From positions 62,001-126,000 of the forward strand of contig CASZWJ010000001.1 in assembly GCA_949493535.1 (NCBI GenBank): 64,000 nucleotides of DNA. The letters are read 5' to 3'. The position numbers and the translations under genes are program-made. The notes under the pieces are model-generated. The model was not told the origin of the DNA, did not search any database, and was given only the letters and a program-made list of their open reading frames with translations. Below are positions 15,713 through 29,694 of the stretch, one piece after another. Source of the DNA: an uncultured Alphaproteobacteria bacterium (GTDB lineage: Bacteria > Pseudomonadota > Alphaproteobacteria > RF32 > CAG-239). Positions within the stretch are counted from its first letter, which is position 1. Every line of letters starts with the position of its first letter.

Positions 15713-16690
15713 TTAATCGATAATTTTAATTGAAAATTTTTCATTGGAAACCGCCTCATCATTTTTAAATACAGCGTTCGAAGCAGGCATAGATTCAGTT
15801 TTGCGCTTTTGTTCCAAAATGTCGAGAATCATATCAAGCTCAGCAACAGAGGCATATTGCAAAACGACTTTGCCACCGCCCTGCTTGCTCGGGCTGATTT
15901 TAATACGCAAGCCCAATTCGCGGTTTAAGTCTTTTTCAATCGTTTCCAAATCTTCATCTTTAACTTTTGCAGCCTTTTCTTTTTTTGGCTCTTTTTGTTT
16001 TGCCACTAATTCTTCAACCTGACGAACGCTCATATCTTTTGCAATTATATTTTGTGCCAGACTGCAGGCGTTTTCCAAACCGACCAAAGCTCTTGCGTGG
16101 CCGGCTGAAATTTTCCCTTCTTTTACCAAATGCTTAACTTCATCAGGGAGACTCAGCAGACGAAGCATATTGGCAATATGGCTGCGTGATTTTCCGACAA
16201 TTTGGGACAAGGCTTCCTGCGTGTGAGAGAACTCATCTATTAATCGCTGAAATCCTTCCGCCTCTTCAATAGCCGACAAATTTTCACGCAACAGATTTTC
16301 GACCAAAGCAACTTCTAAGACTTCTTTGTCATTAAGCTCTTTTACAATAACGGGAACTTCTTTCAGTCCGGCAATTTTAGATGCGCGCCAACGCCTTTCG
16401 CCGGCAATCAGTTCATATTTGTTTCCCTGACGGCGAACCAGAAGCGGCTGTAAAACCCCTTTTTCCTTAATTGAGGCAACAAGCGCATCTAAGGCTTCTT
16501 TATCAAATTCCGTACGCGGTTGATATTTGCTCGGTTCAATATCTTCTATGGCAATCAAATCAGAATTTTTAGCCGGCTTATTGTCAGAAGCTAAGTCTTT
16601 TATATCATCTAACCCCAAATCAAAATCATCGTCGCCGAGCAAGGCTCCAAGACCGCGCCCTAAACTTTTCTTTTTATTATCTTCTAACAT
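15713..16690 (-). CDS. parB: Chromosome partitioning protein ParB
   Basis: CTP-dependent DNA clamp that loads at parS and spreads. It has the LGRGLGALLG N-terminus that stimulates ParA, the IAGERRWRASK (box II, CTP-binding) motif and a helix-turn-helix LSQIVGKSRSHIANMLRLL that reads parS; the C-terminal dimer domain is present. The longer frame from 16759 would overlap parA by 76 bases; the ATG at 16690 follows AAGGAA and overlaps the parA end by 7 bases. Cognate parS sites lie at 18045 and 22585. Confidence 0.96.
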   Translation of the reverse strand: MLEDNKKKSLGRGLGALLGDDDFDLGLDDIKDLASDNKPAKNSDLIAIEDIEPSKYQPRTEFDKEALDALVASIKEKGVLQPLLVRRQGNKYELIAGERRWRASKIAGLKEVPVIVKELNDKEVLEVALVENLLRENLSAIEEAEGFQRLIDEFSHTQEALSQIVGKSRSHIANMLRLLSLPDEVKHLVKEGKISAGHARALVGLENACSLAQNIIAKDMSVRQVEELVAKQKEPKKEKAAKVKDEDLETIEKDLNRELGLRIKISPSKQGGGKVVLQYASVAELDMILDILEQKRKTESMPASNAVFKNDEAVSNEKFSIKIID

Positions 16691-17463
16691 GCGAGTAATT
16701 CCTTTTCTCTTTTCAAAACTTCGCCGGCAAGGCTGATATATGCCTGAGAGCCGGAACACTTAAAATCATAAATCAAAACCGGCTTGCCGTGCGACGGCGC
16801 CTCGGAAACTTTTACGTTTCTGGGTATAACCGTTTGGTAAACTTTTTTGCCGAAAAAGTTTCTGACGTCTTCTTCAACCATTTGCGTTAAATTATTGCGT
16901 TTGTCATACATTGTTAAAACAACGCCTTGAAGCTCCAAATCAGGATTAAATTTGCGTTTGATTTGGTTAATATTGCGAATCAAATCCGTTATGCCTTCGA
17001 GCGCCAAAAATTCGCATTGCAAAGGCACAATAACCGCATTCGCCGCAACTAACGCATTAATTGTTACCAAACTCAAAGACGGCGGACAATCGATTAAAAC
17101 ATAATCATAATTGACGGCTTCGCTTTTTAATGCGTTTTTCAACGCAAATTCGCGCTGTTCTACATCAACCAGTTCGATCTCTGCACCGGCCAAATCAGGA
17201 GAAGAGGGAATAATTGAAAAGTTTGGAATCTCAGTCCATACAATCGCCTCGGACAATTTTGCCTGCCCGATTAAAACCTCATACGACGATGCCATGCGGC
17301 CGCGCTTGTTAACCCCCATAGATGTTGAAGCATTACCCTGCGGATCAAGGTCGACAACCAAAACTTTTTTTCCGGCAGCCGCCATGGCAGTTGCAACGTT
17401 TACCGTGGTTGTCGTTTTTCCGACTCCGCCTTTGCGGTTGGCGATGGCTAACACTCTTGGCAT
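16684..17463 (-). CDS. parA: Chromosome partitioning ATPase ParA (Soj)
   Basis: Deviant-Walker ATPase that moves ParB-parS complexes over the nucleoid. The KGGVGKTTTTVN Walker A starts at residue 11, Walker B region is YDVLIDCPP-like (YVLIDCPPSL), and MGVNKRGRMASSYE is typical of chromosomal Soj. It starts on the last base of the rsmG stop region (17463 is shared), and overlaps parB at its end, forming the compact rsmG-parA-parB unit. Confidence 0.97.
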   Translation of the reverse strand: MPRVLAIANRKGGVGKTTTTVNVATAMAAAGKKVLVVDLDPQGNASTSMGVNKRGRMASSYEVLIGQAKLSEAIVWTEIPNFSIIPSSPDLAGAEIELVDVEQREFALKNALKSEAVNYDYVLIDCPPSLSLVTINALVAANAVIVPLQCEFLALEGITDLIRNINQIKRKFNPDLELQGVVLTMYDKRNNLTQMVEEDVRNFFGKKVYQTVIPRNVKVSEAPSHGKPVLIYDFKCSGSQAYISLAGEVLKREKELLAC

Positions 17464-18086
17464 TATTTATCTCCTTTGCGTTTTAATTTTCTTATAATTA
17501 AAATTTTTCCTTCATTGCTGGTTTTGCTGTCGCAGATTTCACAATCAAAGCGCCAGTTTTTTTCAGCTTCAATTAATTCGTCCTTATATTTTTGCCCTTT
17601 GGGGAAAATACAAACTGTTTCAGGCTTTACAAAACGGTAAGTATAATTCAGCAACTCATTTAACGACGCCATTGCGCGCGATGTGATTACATCTGCTTTT
17701 TGAGGCGGCAATTTTTCTATCCGGTCATTGATAATTTCCACGTTTGCACCCGAGAGTTTTGCAACCTCGTTTAAATACAGTGTCTTTTTACCAATGCTTT
17801 CAATCAATTTAAATTTTAAATACGGTGTTTTTTCTTTCGCCATTATAGCCAGCACCATTGCCGGAAAACCAGCTCCAGAGCCAAAATCAAGCAAAACCCG
17901 AGCATCCTGCGGAATATATTGAAACAACTGAGCCGAGTCTACGAAATGACGTACCCAGCCATCCGCCAGAGATGAATTGCTTACCAAATTGAACTTTTTT
18001 TGCCATTCAGCTAAAGAGCTTTCATAGACTTTCAAGAGTTCAAATGTTTCACGTGAAACATCAAATGTGTCCATAAATTTTTTCAT
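17463..18086 (-). CDS. rsmG: 16S rRNA (guanine527-N7)-methyltransferase RsmG (GidB)
   Basis: Methylates N7 of G527 in 16S rRNA. The SAM-binding motif VLLDFGSGAGFPAMVLAI and the VSRETFELL N-terminus are typical. The codons for VSRET carry a perfect 16-bp parS site. Two ATGs (18086, 18074) are possible, neither with a strong ribosome site. Upstream is a 118-base AT-rich gap; the usual upstream neighbour mnmG is displaced by five inserted genes. Confidence 0.93.
   Translation of the reverse strand: MKKFMDTFDVSRETFELLKVYESSLAEWQKKFNLVSNSSLADGWVRHFVDSAQLFQYIPQDARVLLDFGSGAGFPAMVLAIMAKEKTPYLKFKLIESIGKKTLYLNEVAKLSGANVEIINDRIEKLPPQKADVITSRAMASLNELLNYTYRFVKPETVCIFPKGQKYKDELIEAEKNWRFDCEICDSKTSNEGKILIIRKLKRKGDK
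18045..18060. promoter_or_regulatory. parS: parS centromere site 1
   Basis: TGTTTCACGTGAAACA, a perfect 16-bp palindrome identical to the consensus ParB-binding parS. It lies within the start of rsmG, about 1.4 kb from parB and about 10 kb from the proposed origin. Confidence 0.95.
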
Positions 18087-22287: not shown

Positions 22288-24135
22288 TCACCTCTTTACA
22301 AAACCAAGGATTGCTGTGATTGCTGCCGGCGTTACTCCCGGAATGCGCGATGCTTCGCCGATTGTGGACGGTTTGACTTTACTCAGTTTGGCGACCATTT
22401 CGCGAGACAAACCGCCTATTTTAGAATAATCAATATCGTCTCTTAATTTTAAGTTTTCATCTTTTTTGAAAACTTCAATATCTGCCATTTGCCTTTTTAT
22501 GTATCCCGAATAACGTGCTTCTATTTCCAAGGCTTCATAAACAACATTCGGCATATCGGATAATTCTGGCCAGAGTTTATTAATTGTTTCACGTGAAACT
22601 TCATCATAAGACATCACATTTAACGGTGTTCTTTTGGTTCCGTCATTCTTGACCTTTATGCCAAGGTTATCTAATTCTTTGGCTGTTGTTTGCAAAGTTT
22701 CGCATAATTGGCGATAGTGCTCAATTTGAGCTTTTTTAGCTTTAAATACAGTGTATCTTTCATTAGAAACACATCCTGTTTCATAACCTTTTTCCGTTAA
22801 ACGCTGGTCGGCATTGTCTGCACGCAAGAAGAGGCGGTATTCGGAACGCGACGTAAACATTCTATAAGGTTCATCAACACCTTTTGTTATCAAATCGTCT
22901 ATCATAACCCCGATATAGGCTTCACTACGGTCGATAACAAATTCTTTGCCGTCATTCAAAGCGGAATGCGCTGCATTTACGCCGGCGACCAAACCTTGCG
23001 CGGCAGCTTCTTCATAACCGGTCGTTCCGTTAATCTGTCCGGCCAAAAATAATCCGGAAACTTTTTTAACGGACAAACGGTTGTCTAATTCCTGCGGATC
23101 AACATAATCATATTCTATCGCATAGGCAAATTTCAAGATTTCAACATCTTCCAAGCCTTCCATGGTGTGAATAAACGCATCCTGAACATCTGCCGGCAAA
23201 GAGGTAGATATGCCGTTCGGATAGACAACATCTGTCGTTAAGCCTTCCGGCTCCAAAAATATCTGATGACTGGTTCTGTCGGCAAATTTAACCAGTTTAT
23301 CTTCAATACTCGGACAATAACGCGGTCCGATACCGGTAATCAATCCAGAGAAAAGCGCGCATTTATCAAAATTGTCGCGAATAATTTTATGCGTCTTTTC
23401 GTTTGTATGCGTCACATAACATTTAATTTGCGGATTTGTAATTTTATCGGTCAGATAAGAAAACGGCAGCGGCGGATTATCACCTTCCTGTTCCGCCAAT
23501 TTTTCCCAATGGATTGTTTTGCCGTTTAAGCGGGCAGGGGTGCCGGTCTTTAAACGCCCAACTTTAAGCCCCAAAGACTTTAAATACGGTGTTATTCCCG
23601 TACAACTGACATCATCTATTCTTCCGCCGACTGTTGCTTCATGACCAACAAACATAATGCCGTTTAAAAAAGTTCCCGAAGTTAAAATAACGGCCTTGGC
23701 AACTATTTCTGTTCCGTCTGCCAGAATAATTCCTTTGACCGTATTGTCATCAATAATCAAACCTTCTGCGGCAGCTTCAATAATTTCGAGATTATCCTGT
23801 TTTTGGAGTGCTTCCAACATATGTTTTTTATATAATTCGCGGTCTGCCTGAGCACGCGGGCCTCTGACAGCAGGCCCTTTTGACGCGTTTAACATTCGAA
23901 ACTGGATGCCGGCCTTATCAATTACGCGTCCCATCAGGCCGTCCAACGCATCAATTTCGCGTACCAAATGCCCTTTGCCAAGCCCGCCGATTGCCGGATT
24001 ACAAGACATAGCGCCGATAGTGTCTATATGATGTGTTATCAGAGCCGTATCAGCTCCGGTTCGGGCTGCAGCGGCACAGGCTTCGCAGCCGGCATGTCCG
24101 CCGCCGATAACGATGACATCATAACTTTTCTTCAT
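22288..24135 (-). CDS. mnmG: tRNA uridine 5-carboxymethylaminomethyl modification enzyme MnmG (GidA)
   Basis: FAD-dependent partner of MnmE that installs cmnm5 at wobble U34 of tRNAs. The dinucleotide motif [12 protein letters not shown] is at the N-terminus, [23 protein letters not shown] is complete, and the C-terminal [18 protein letters not shown] helix bundle binds MnmE. At 615 residues it is full length. The coding region includes a near-perfect parS at 22585-22600 (codons for VSRET, as in rsmG). mnmE lies upstream but is separated by a terminator, so mnmG appears to have its own promoter in the 24136-24228 gap. Confidence 0.97.
22585..22600. promoter_or_regulatory. parS: parS centromere site 2
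   Basis: TGTTTCACGTGAAACT: the 14-bp core GTTTCACGTGAAAC is perfect and only the outermost base pair departs from the palindrome. It lies inside mnmG, 4.5 kb closer to the proposed origin than site 1. Confidence 0.88.
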
Positions 24136-26506: not shown

Positions 26507-26532
26507 AAAAGCCCCCAAAGGGGCTTTTTTTT
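26505..26532. terminator. Bidirectional terminator between HAD gene and rho
   Basis: Stem AAAAAAGCCCC / GGGGCTTTTTT with a 4-base loop CAAA and T8. The HAD stop (TAA) and the rho stop both overlap its flanks. Confidence 0.93.
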
Positions 26533-27784
26533 AAGAATTCATTGTATTGAAGAAATCTTGGTTATCCTTGCTTTGTTTTAATTTATCAAGCAAAAATTCC
26601 ATACCGTCTGTCATGCCCATTTGCATTAAAACTCGGCGCAAGACCCACATTTTTGACAAAGTGGCTTTATCAACCAACAGTTCTTCTTTACGCGTACCCG
26701 AACGGGTAATGTCTATTGTCGGGAACAAACGTTTATCCGTTAATTTTCTATCCAAAATGATTTCCGAGTTACCGGTACCTTTAAATTCTTCAAAGATAAC
26801 TTCGTCCATACGGGAACCCGTATCAATCAAGGCTGTGGCAATAATCGTCAAAGAACCGCCTTCTTCTACGTTTCTGGCCGCACCGAGCAAACGTTTCGGA
26901 CGTTGTAAAGCATTTGCATCCACACCTCCGGTCAAAACTTTGCCTGATGAAGGGATAACCGTATTATAAGCACGTCCCAAACGGGTGATAGAGTCTAAAA
27001 GAATTATTACATCCTTCTTTGTTTCTACCAAGCGTTTAGCTTTTTCTATTACCATTTCAGCAACCTGAACGTGACGCGCAGCCGGCTCATCAAAGGTGGA
27101 AGAAATTACTTCGCCTTTAACTGAGCGGGTCATATCCGTTACTTCTTCAGGGCGTTCGTCAATCAAAAGAACCATTAAATAAGCTTCCGGATGATTGGTC
27201 GCAATAGCATGGGCAATATTCTGCAACATAACGGTTTTACCGGTACGCGGCGGCGCAACAATCAGGCCTCGCTGGCCTTTGCCTTGGGGAGCTATCAAAT
27301 CAATGACGCGGGTTGTATAATCTTTATCGCCGCAGATGATGTCAAAATCTAGTTTTTCTGTAGGATAAAGGGGCGTCAGGTTATCAAAGTTTATTCGGAG
27401 TTTGGATTGTTCTGGATCTTCAAAATTAATACGGTTGACTTTAGTTAAAGCAAAATAACGTTCGTTATCTTTGGGAGCTCTGATTTCTCCTTCAACGGTA
27501 TCGCCTGTTCTTAAACCGAATTTTTTAACCTGAGACGGAGACACATAAATATCATCAGGTCCGGCAAGATAATTTGACTGGCTGGATCTTAAAAAGCCGA
27601 AGCCGTCTTGCAAAACTTCAATGGTACCTTCGCCGTATATAGTATTGTCATCACCCGCTACTTTTTTCAAAATAGCGAACATTAAATCTTGTTTGCGCAT
27701 GGAAGAAGCATCTTCAATGCCCAGATCCTCAGCTTGAGTAAGCAACTCTTTGGGGGATTTTTGTTTTAAGTCTTTTAAATTCAT
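26531..27784 (-). CDS. rho: Transcription termination factor Rho
   Basis: Hexameric RNA-dependent ATPase that ends transcription. The N-terminal domain ([10 protein letters not shown]) is followed by the cold-shock-like RNA-binding fold ([22 protein letters not shown]), Walker [15 protein letters not shown], Walker [16 protein letters not shown] and the R-loop/Q-loop region. At 417 residues it is a usual length with no insertion. It reads away from the proposed origin, co-oriented with the leftward fork; in many Alphaproteobacteria rho (with hemE) also borders the origin. Confidence 0.97.
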
Positions 27785-28054
27785 TCTGACCTTGATTATA
27801 AGGGAAAAGTTAAACCAGTTAAATTGAAAAAAATAACATTAACTGTCATTAGGAAGGTAGTTTTTTTATATTATGTAATTATATTAATGTCAATGATGAA
27901 TCATTGGGATGAAAATCCTCTTTGCTTGTAAAAATTTTTGATACCGGTGTTCAGATTTTATTAACAGCCCCGCAGGGCTAATATATATTTTTAAAAGTTT
28001 AGTTGTTGATTGTATATTCCGGTGAATCCTGTTAATTATTTTTTATACCGTAAT

Positions 28055-28063
28055 TTATCCACA
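28055..28063 (+). promoter_or_regulatory. DnaA box 1
   Basis: TTATCCACA, a perfect consensus DnaA box, ending 2 bases before CtrA box 1. Confidence 0.85.
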
Positions 28064-28065
28064 TT

Positions 28066-28080
28066 TTAACCTTATGTTAA
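28066..28080. promoter_or_regulatory. CtrA box 1 of the origin
   Basis: TTAA-CCTTATG-TTAA, a perfect TTAA-N7-TTAA. Bound CtrA would occlude the adjacent DnaA box or the helicase-loading region, as in Caulobacter. Confidence 0.72.
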
Positions 28081-28291
28081 TAAGTTTGTGAATCAGATTC
28101 TCTCCGGATTCTTTTTTGTTAATCGTTTCAATCAGATAGTTTTGGCAATAAAAATTTTGGCTTGTTGTTGACAAATTAAGTTATCAGCATTTTTTACACC
28201 TGTTGATATAAGTTATTAACCTGTATATAACTTATATATATAAATTTGTTTTATGGTGATTAAATTGTATAACTCTTATCAGGAATGTCAG

Positions 28292-28300
28292 TTATGCACA
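28292..28300 (+). promoter_or_regulatory. DnaA box 2
   Basis: TTATGCACA, matching TTATNCACA, 5 bases before CtrA box 2. Same strand and same order as box 1 with its CtrA site. Confidence 0.78.
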
Positions 28301-28305
28301 AAAAG

Positions 28306-28320
28306 TTAATCTTCTGTTAA
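28306..28320. promoter_or_regulatory. CtrA box 2 of the origin
   Basis: TTAA-TCTTCTG-TTAA, a perfect TTAA-N7-TTAA directly after DnaA box 2. Confidence 0.72.
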
Positions 28321-28368
28321 TAACTCAGCAAGCCTTTGTAATCATTATTTAATTGCTGATTTTATAAT

Positions 28369-28383
28369 TTAAAGGCTTTTTAA
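28369..28383. promoter_or_regulatory. CtrA box 3 of the origin
   Basis: TTAA-AGGCTTT-TTAA, a perfect TTAA-N7-TTAA 25 bases before the coaE start. It could also control coaE transcription. Confidence 0.65.
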
Positions 28384-28408
28384 TAAAAAAAATTTAAGGT
28401 TTTTATCA

Positions 28409-28987
28409 ATGAAACTTATTGCAATTACCGGCTCTATCGGATGCGGCAAAACAACAATAGCCAAGGAATTGAAAAAACTCGGTTTTACTGTTTTTGATGT
28501 CGACGGCTGGGTTCGCAGGCTGTATTTTAAAAACGATTTTATTAATACAATCGTTGAAAATTTTCCCGAAACAGCGGAAAACGGCGTTTTTAATAAAAGA
28601 AAACTCAGAAATCTGGTTTTTGACGATAATAAAAAGCTCAAAATGCTTGAGGGTTTGATACATCCTTTTTTGAATAATCAGTTAAAAGAGATAATCCGGC
28701 GCAATGCCTGCTATGATGATTTGTTTTTTTTAGATGTAGCTCTGTTGTTTGAAATGGGTTGGGATAAATATTGCGATTTGGTTATGGTTGCCGATGTCGA
28801 TGCAGAAATTCAAAAACAAAGGGTTATGGCAAGAGACAATGTTTCTGCCGAGCATTTTGAAAAAATTAATAATGTTCAGATGAGTCAGGCTGACAAAAAA
28901 GCTTTATCTGATGTGATTATTGAAACAGATGTGCCGCTGAATTTATTAAAAGCTCAGCTTATCAGTGTGATTGAAGGGTTGGAATAA
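28409..28987 (+). CDS. coaE: Dephospho-CoA kinase
   Basis: Final step of coenzyme A synthesis: phosphorylation of the ribose 3'-OH of dephospho-CoA. Walker A ITGSIGCGKTTIAKEL is at residues 5-20, the DxD-like FDVDGWVRRLY follows and DVALLFEMGWDKYCD is the substrate lid region. 192 residues. Its stop overlaps the dnaQ start (TAATG), so the two are coupled; coaE-dnaQ beside the origin is widespread in Alphaproteobacteria. Confidence 0.95.
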   Translation: MKLIAITGSIGCGKTTIAKELKKLGFTVFDVDGWVRRLYFKNDFINTIVENFPETAENGVFNKRKLRNLVFDDNKKLKMLEGLIHPFLNNQLKEIIRRNACYDDLFFLDVALLFEMGWDKYCDLVMVADVDAEIQKQRVMARDNVSAEHFEKINNVQMSQADKKALSDVIIETDVPLNLLKAQLISVIEGLE

Positions 28988-29694
28988 TGGTTAGAGAGAT
29001 TGTTTTTGATACAGAAACAACGGGTTTTGATGCGGAAAAGGGCGACCGTTTGGTCGAAATCGGCGCTGTCGAGCTGATTAACCATATGCCGACCGGAAAA
29101 GTTTATCATCAATATATTAATCCGCAGCGCGAAGTTCCCGAAGATGCTTTCAGAGTTCATGGTTTATCTTATGAGTTTTTGAAAGATTTTCCAACTTTTG
29201 ACCAAGTAGTTGACGAATGGCTGGAATTTGTCGGCGATGATTCAATATTGGTTGCGCATAATGCTTCTTTTGATATTAATTTTTGCAACTATGAACAAAA
29301 ATGTTTAAATAAAATCGAATTTAAATGGGATAGGGTTATTGATACGCTGGAAATTGCGCGCAATATGTTTCCCGGTTCACGCGTTAATTTGGATGCTTTG
29401 TGTAAGCGTTTCGGCATAGACAACTCTAACCGTACCAAACACGGCGCTTTGCTCGATGCCGAATTATTGGCAGAAGTTTATTTGCAGCTTATCGGCGGAC
29501 AAGAACCAAGTATGATGTTTGATGAAAAAAAATCAGCATCGTCTTCTGTTTTTGTTGCCGAAAAAATTGATAGAAAATTCAGGGAAGCCCGTCAGTTTTC
29601 TTTGAGTGAAGAAGAAATACAGAAGCATAAAGATTTTTTGGAAAGCAAACTCAAAGGGGCTTTGTGGTATGCTGAAACCAAACCTGCCGAATAA
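28987..29694 (+). CDS. dnaQ: DNA polymerase III epsilon subunit (3'-5' proofreading exonuclease)
   Basis: DEDDh exonuclease that proofreads in the replicative polymerase. ExoI EIVFDTETTGFD (Asp and Glu ligands, residues 4-15), ExoII VAHNASFDINF and ExoIII KHGALLDAELLAEVYLQL are complete. The C-terminal tail (about 175-235) is the polymerase-binding part. It ends 7 bases before the convergent smr stop, with no hairpin between. Confidence 0.95.
   Translation: MVREIVFDTETTGFDAEKGDRLVEIGAVELINHMPTGKVYHQYINPQREVPEDAFRVHGLSYEFLKDFPTFDQVVDEWLEFVGDDSILVAHNASFDINFCNYEQKCLNKIEFKWDRVIDTLEIARNMFPGSRVNLDALCKRFGIDNSNRTKHGALLDAELLAEVYLQLIGGQEPSMMFDEKKSASSSVFVAEKIDRKFREARQFSLSEEEIQKHKDFLESKLKGALWYAETKPAE

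Follow-up and report, generated by a model that had tools for sequence, protein, structure and literature searches.

A candidate CtrA-gated replication origin between rho and coaE in an uncultured family of Alphaproteobacteria

The intergenic region (IGR) between rho and coaE in the window analysed here, a stretch of 64,000 nucleotides whose numbering is used throughout unless contig positions are indicated, is almost certainly a chromosomal replication origin. The explanation that best accounts for its features as a whole, to which we assign a probability of about 0.8, is an oriC at which DnaA and CtrA would compete, with CtrA holding off initiation. Caulobacter is the established case of direct control of the origin by CtrA; for Hyphomonas there is supporting evidence, for Rickettsiales there are predictions, and in Sinorhizobium such control has been reported to be missing. 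It is probable that this switch for starting replication, described above all in Caulobacter, also operates in a large family of uncultured Alphaproteobacteria with small genomes, which possesses ctrA, ccrM and gcrA as well as conserved CtrA sites at the origin; this suggests that CtrA gating is older, or has been reinvented more often, than the model organisms show. The nearly ninety comparable origins of the family represent a natural data set for tracing, at single-nucleotide resolution, how CtrA sites arise and disappear; these changes include a CtrA box that has directly taken the place of a DnaA box.

Location of the origin

The IGR is 624 bp long with an AT content of 74%. It and its neighbours, with the elements of the partition system, are as follows.

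27785..28408, no strand: oriC-bearing IGR between rho and coaE (basis: GC skew, synteny, motif clusters)
26531..27784, minus strand: rho, left neighbour (Pfam Rho domains)
28409..28987, plus strand: coaE, right neighbour (Pfam CoaE)
28987-29694: dnaQ, after coaE (Pfam RNase_T)
15713..17463, minus strand: parB and parA, separated from the origin by about 11 kb (Pfam ParB_N, HTH_ParB, AAA_31)
18045..18060, no strand: perfect parS, TGTTTCACGTGAAACA
22585-22600: copy of parS with one mismatch

Cumulative GC skew was calculated over 340 of the 347 kb of the contig that carries the window, and over contigs of two relatives from another genus. In the former the skew is negative to the left of its minimum and steadily positive on the right, and the minimum itself, at contig position 89188, lies 0.6 kb from the IGR (contig positions 89785-90408), as expected from the preliminary description of this region, which had proposed it as an origin. 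In one relative (G026) the minimum is found at 318223, within 0.5 kb of the locus (rho begins at 318175), and in the other (G013) at 189558, with the IGR about 4 kb away at 193.7-194.2 kb. On each of the three contigs scanned the rho-coaE IGR is the densest cluster of DnaA and CtrA boxes. The order of genes on the left flank is parB-parA-rsmG ... mnmG-mnmE-rho, with parAB and the perfect parS within 13 kb of the origin, and dnaA is on the same contig as the IGR, some 60 kb away. The coincidence of skew minimum, motif cluster, parABS flank and dnaA on the contig leaves little doubt that this is oriC.

Binding sites in the IGR and their chance expectation

Two DnaA boxes, three perfect CtrA boxes (TTAA-N7-TTAA) and five GANTC sites had been listed in the preliminary description, and all of them are recovered here. 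The aligned positions of 68 family loci, on which the counts below are based, also reveal the remains of further DnaA boxes.

27898 and 28024, no strand: GANTC sites, which bring the total in the IGR to five
27958..27966, plus strand: remnant of a left DnaA box, TTATTAACA, one mismatch; intact in 27/68 relatives
28030..28038, minus strand: decayed left inverted DnaA box, TGTTAATTA; intact in 26/68 relatives
28055..28063, plus strand: DnaA box 1, TTATCCACA, module 1; aligned DnaA box in 6/68 loci
28066..28080, no strand: CtrA box 1, TTAACCTTATGTTAA, module 1; the family's main central CtrA position, perfect in 30/68 loci
28090, 28096 and 28107 (28090..28111), no strand: three GANTC (CcrM-type) sites beside module 1
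28292..28300, plus strand: DnaA box 2, TTATGCACA, better conserved than any other element of the origin; same alignment column in 64/68 loci
28306..28320, no strand: CtrA box 2, TTAATCTTCTGTTAA, module 2; its right half overlaps the family's slot for an inverted DnaA box
28315..28323, minus strand: degenerate inverted DnaA box, TGTTAATAA, one mismatch, 23 bp after DnaA box 2
28369..28383, no strand: CtrA box 3, TTAAAGGCTTTTTAA, 25 bp upstream of the start codon of coaE; this species only

Both DnaA boxes are perfect matches, and the gap between DnaA box and CtrA box is 2 bp in module 1 and 5 bp in module 2. We have evaluated these counts against the genome (1.72 Mb in 21 unordered contigs, rated 100% complete) and against a harsher null of 20,000 first-order Markov copies of the IGR with the same composition. 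TTAA-N7-TTAA occurs 79 times in the genome, a rate at which 0.029 boxes are expected in 624 bp (P = 4e-6 for at least three); the Markov copies contain 0.28 on average (P = 0.003 for at least three). In the same copies the probability of at least two DnaA boxes is 0.0017 and that of at least five GANTC sites is 0.002. The repeated DnaA-then-CtrA order, which the preliminary description considered hard to explain by chance, is indeed so: none of the 20,000 copies contains two such modules, and the genome has only two instances of the pattern TTATNCACA-N(0-12)-TTAA-N7-TTAA, each inside the rho-coaE IGR. As discussed below, the pairing is not ancestral.

Conservation across the family

Loci were collected from 70 genomes of the family and then from 19 more, one of which belongs to another family of the order. 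Of the first 70, 68 have the arrangement rho, IGR, coaE, as do the 19 later ones without exception, for a total of 87, with IGR lengths of 410-624 bp; flanks of rho and coaE, in place of hemE, are shared well beyond the species in which they were first noticed. The 68 aligned IGRs contain 190 DnaA boxes versus 1.1 expected from the genome background (about 170-fold), 122 CtrA boxes versus 2.1 (58-fold) and 155 GANTC sites, while dinucleotide shuffles of the 70 IGRs contain 3.5 DnaA and 16.1 CtrA boxes. The IGR of the single genome sampled from the other family (L238) has one CtrA box, together with four DnaA boxes. Relatives keep both kinds of box at this locus, as the preliminary description had anticipated.

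The strongest evidence that the TTAA pairs are CtrA sites, and not noise in AT-rich DNA, is their spacing: when TTAA-Nk-TTAA is counted in the 68 IGRs for k = 3-12, a sharp peak is seen at k = 7 (122 occurrences, versus 29 or fewer at any other k), and this peak is absent from 1.13 Mb of genome background. That the region is just an ordinary AT-rich promoter region with chance matches to TTAA and to DnaA-like sequences, and no origin at all, is a reading invited by its 74% AT; it is refuted by the skew minimum, by the enrichment of both kinds of box and by the 7-bp optimum, and we give it practically no credence.

The case for GANTC is less clear-cut. The 70 IGRs contain 156 sites versus 47.9 in their dinucleotide shuffles (3.3-fold), but the enrichment over genome background is only 2.2-fold, similar to that of AT-only palindromes, and hence it is the shuffle comparison alone that supports it. 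The CcrM-type sites pointed out earlier are thus truly enriched, if moderately.

A strict IHF site is missing from the IGR of this species; across the family IGRs, strict IHF-like sites number 37 versus 4.9 expected. The relatives' sites align with window positions 28115, 28214 and 28330.

A scan of 10 kb around 80 rho loci of other Alphaproteobacteria did not return any cluster of DnaA and CtrA boxes of equal density; this is a weak negative, as GC-rich genomes may use laxer motifs.

The least stable 60 bp of the IGR, 28206-28265, are located between the modules and rank among the least stable 0.1% of the window in a stability scan. They are a candidate unwinding element, for which no conserved position was found in the relatives' IGRs. 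A short sequence, GGTGATTAAATTGTATAA at 28255-28272, to the immediate left of the anchor DnaA box at 28292, recurs in the form GATWA..TATAA in 36/82 loci; it is a possible promoter of coaE or may belong to the unwinding element. Elsewhere in the origin, 27966-27979 (AGCCCCGCAGGGCT) is a short hairpin-like palindrome, perhaps a terminator or a structural mark, inside a block of about 26 bases that is almost unchanged across six congeneric species.

These positions bear on whether the CtrA boxes of the oriC might act on the transcription of its two flanking genes, coaE and rho, and not on replication. The start of coaE is no more than about 100 bp from CtrA boxes 28306 and 28369, and the conserved GATTA..TATAA element just upstream of DnaA box 2 is a possible promoter. 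However, the most conserved CtrA position, 28066, is approximately 280-340 bp from either start codon, the CtrA boxes of the family cluster in the middle of the IGR, 200-290 bp from rho, and those of the two modules are 2-5 bp from DnaA boxes. On balance we consider control of transcription unlikely.

Exchange of DnaA and CtrA boxes

Among the DnaA and CtrA boxes of this IGR only DnaA box 2 at 28292 (64/68) and the central CtrA box at 28066 (30/68) are widespread; of the left DnaA boxes, the one at the column of 27958 is retained in 27 of the 68 loci and the one at 28030 in 26, and both have decayed here. At the slot of 28315..28323 relatives carry TGTGNATAA, an inverted DnaA box that is intact in 42/68 loci (alignment column) and whose start follows that of DnaA box 2 by 23-24 bp in 39 pairs among the family loci. 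In the window's genus TGTTAATAA replaces TGTGNATAA beside the anchor, and TGTTAATAA also furnishes the right half of CtrA box 2. According to the alignments, module 2 is a genus-level conversion of the inverted DnaA box into a second CtrA half-site. Since CtrA would occupy the slot of the relatives' inverted DnaA box, a repressing site should have replaced an activating one in this genus. Twelve loci with an intact inverted box also have a TTAA half-site between the two DnaA boxes, in what looks like an intermediate state.

CtrA box 2 is also present in one species of another genus (L124), while its congener L115 has a DnaA box instead. In a tree of rho, coaE and dnaQ fragments both group apart from the window's genus, so that the exchange probably occurred more than once; the pattern suggests two separate conversions of a DnaA box into a CtrA box. 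Both boxes of module 1 occur together in the species of the window and in its congeners L091 and L092; the other three congeners have lost the DnaA box of the module and retain a CtrA box nearby. We had entertained the idea that both modules are ancestral; it was dropped, as the alignments show that module 2 is genus-level and that the DnaA box of module 1 occurs in 6/68 loci. Likewise, the third CtrA box noted at 28369 is present and perfect, but in this species only.

A more general view, which we advance tentatively and at somewhat less than even odds, is that the origin of the family is a mosaic. The same nucleotides would switch between DnaA box and CtrA box, as where the change of TGTGNATAA into TGTTAATAA yields a full TTAA-N7-TTAA, the balance of activator and repressor would be tuned between species by point mutations, and CtrA would be released without RcdA-type proteolysis.

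A perfect CtrA box is missing from 16/68 IGRs, or 20/87 in the larger set, about a quarter in either case; at these loci gating may have been lost, or imperfect sites may be used. This fraction, the shifting of CtrA positions between genera and the missing parts of the CtrA clearance machinery (see below) would also fit an oriC whose CtrA sites are remnants, unbound in this lineage. Against such decay, perfect boxes are retained in the window's genus, and new ones have even formed, despite the divergence of their surroundings, and the peak at 7 bp suggests continuing selection; we find it quite improbable that the sites are relics.

Comparison with known origins

In Caulobacter parAB-rsmG-mnmG-mnmE-rho lie on one flank of the origin (Cori), as here, and in other Alphaproteobacteria rho is close to the counterpart of Cori. 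With rho so close, the present neighbourhood is related to that of Cori, and the hemE flank is a locator and not a mechanism.

Cori of Caulobacter crescentus is located between hemE and COG1806 and has five CtrA sites and one IHF site (PMC1914354). The two origins are alike in that DnaA boxes and TTAA-N7-TTAA sites are interleaved in an AT-rich intergenic origin, with some CtrA sites adjoining or overlapping DnaA boxes, and in that ctrA, ccrM and gcrA are present in both organisms. They differ in that the present origin is flanked by rho and coaE, with no hemE, has three CtrA sites and no perfect IHF site, and contains a DnaA/CtrA composite whose two kinds of box replace each other between species. 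Judged by its sites, the present origin would work like Cori.

For Rickettsia prowazekii and for Wolbachia/Ehrlichia, PMC1914354 (with Brassinga et al. 2002 cited there) gives predicted origins that are AT-rich, measure about 400 bp and contain sites for DnaA and CtrA, as here. Those of Rickettsiales differ in being flanked by hemE; they are mostly predictions, with zero to seven sites, and belong to host-bound bacteria. In Hyphomonas neptunium, CtrA binds beside the chromosomal origin in vivo according to ChIP-seq (PMC7200025); the differences are that this is a single site beside the origin, and that the organism is a stalked budding bacterium that has been studied experimentally. In Sinorhizobium meliloti, whose origin is likewise alphaproteobacterial and in a bacterium with a CtrA pathway, there are reportedly no CtrA sites near the origin (PMC11500502). 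Text searches of the open literature did not turn up a report on the origin of this lineage, which is weak evidence of novelty.

Trans-acting factors and control of initiation

The genome of this species encodes ctrA, ccrM, gcrA and dnaA, the first three of which the preliminary description had named as genes to look for. There is one clear ortholog of ctrA, 69% identical to the Caulobacter protein over 226 residues, with conserved receiver domain, phosphorylation site (D51) and DNA-binding domain. The family counts, out of 101 genomes, are 92 for CtrA, 93 for CcrM and 96 for GcrA. The ctrA promoter region (G000:C15, L001) contains TTAA repeats, which suggests autoregulation.

In the favoured reading, that of competition at oriC, DnaA would bind the family anchor at 28292 and the box at 28055 and open AT-rich DNA that probably lies between the two modules. 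The sites bound by phosphorylated CtrA would be the central one at 28066 and that at 28306; because these are only 2-5 bp from DnaA boxes, CtrA should exclude or block DnaA, and at 28306 it would take the slot of the relatives' second, inverted DnaA box. By excluding DnaA, or by stopping its spreading, phosphorylated CtrA would make initiation wait for its own inactivation. The earlier proposal of a Caulobacter-like, CtrA-gated origin stands as regards location, sites, conservation and proteins; CtrA binding, competition with DnaA, repression and the role of methylation we infer from the sites.

The release of the brake probably differs from that of Caulobacter. Caulobacter CtrA ends in an AA tag, which is absent from the C-termini of family CtrA proteins that were read, and RcdA (PF07323) was not found in any of 48 family genomes by a search that detected the Caulobacter control; in the joint absence of RcdA and the tag, clearance of the Caulobacter type is unlikely. 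Dephosphorylation or another protease route would probably take its place. A ChpT-like protein, a weak match at the family cut-off, adjoins a protein consisting of a single receiver.

Methylation of GANTC by CcrM probably marks origins that have been replicated. In several genomes of the family (for example G035:C62, G004:C14 and G074:C5) a second, shorter CcrM-like methyltransferase, about 45-50% identical over 250 residues, is encoded in addition to the full-length one.
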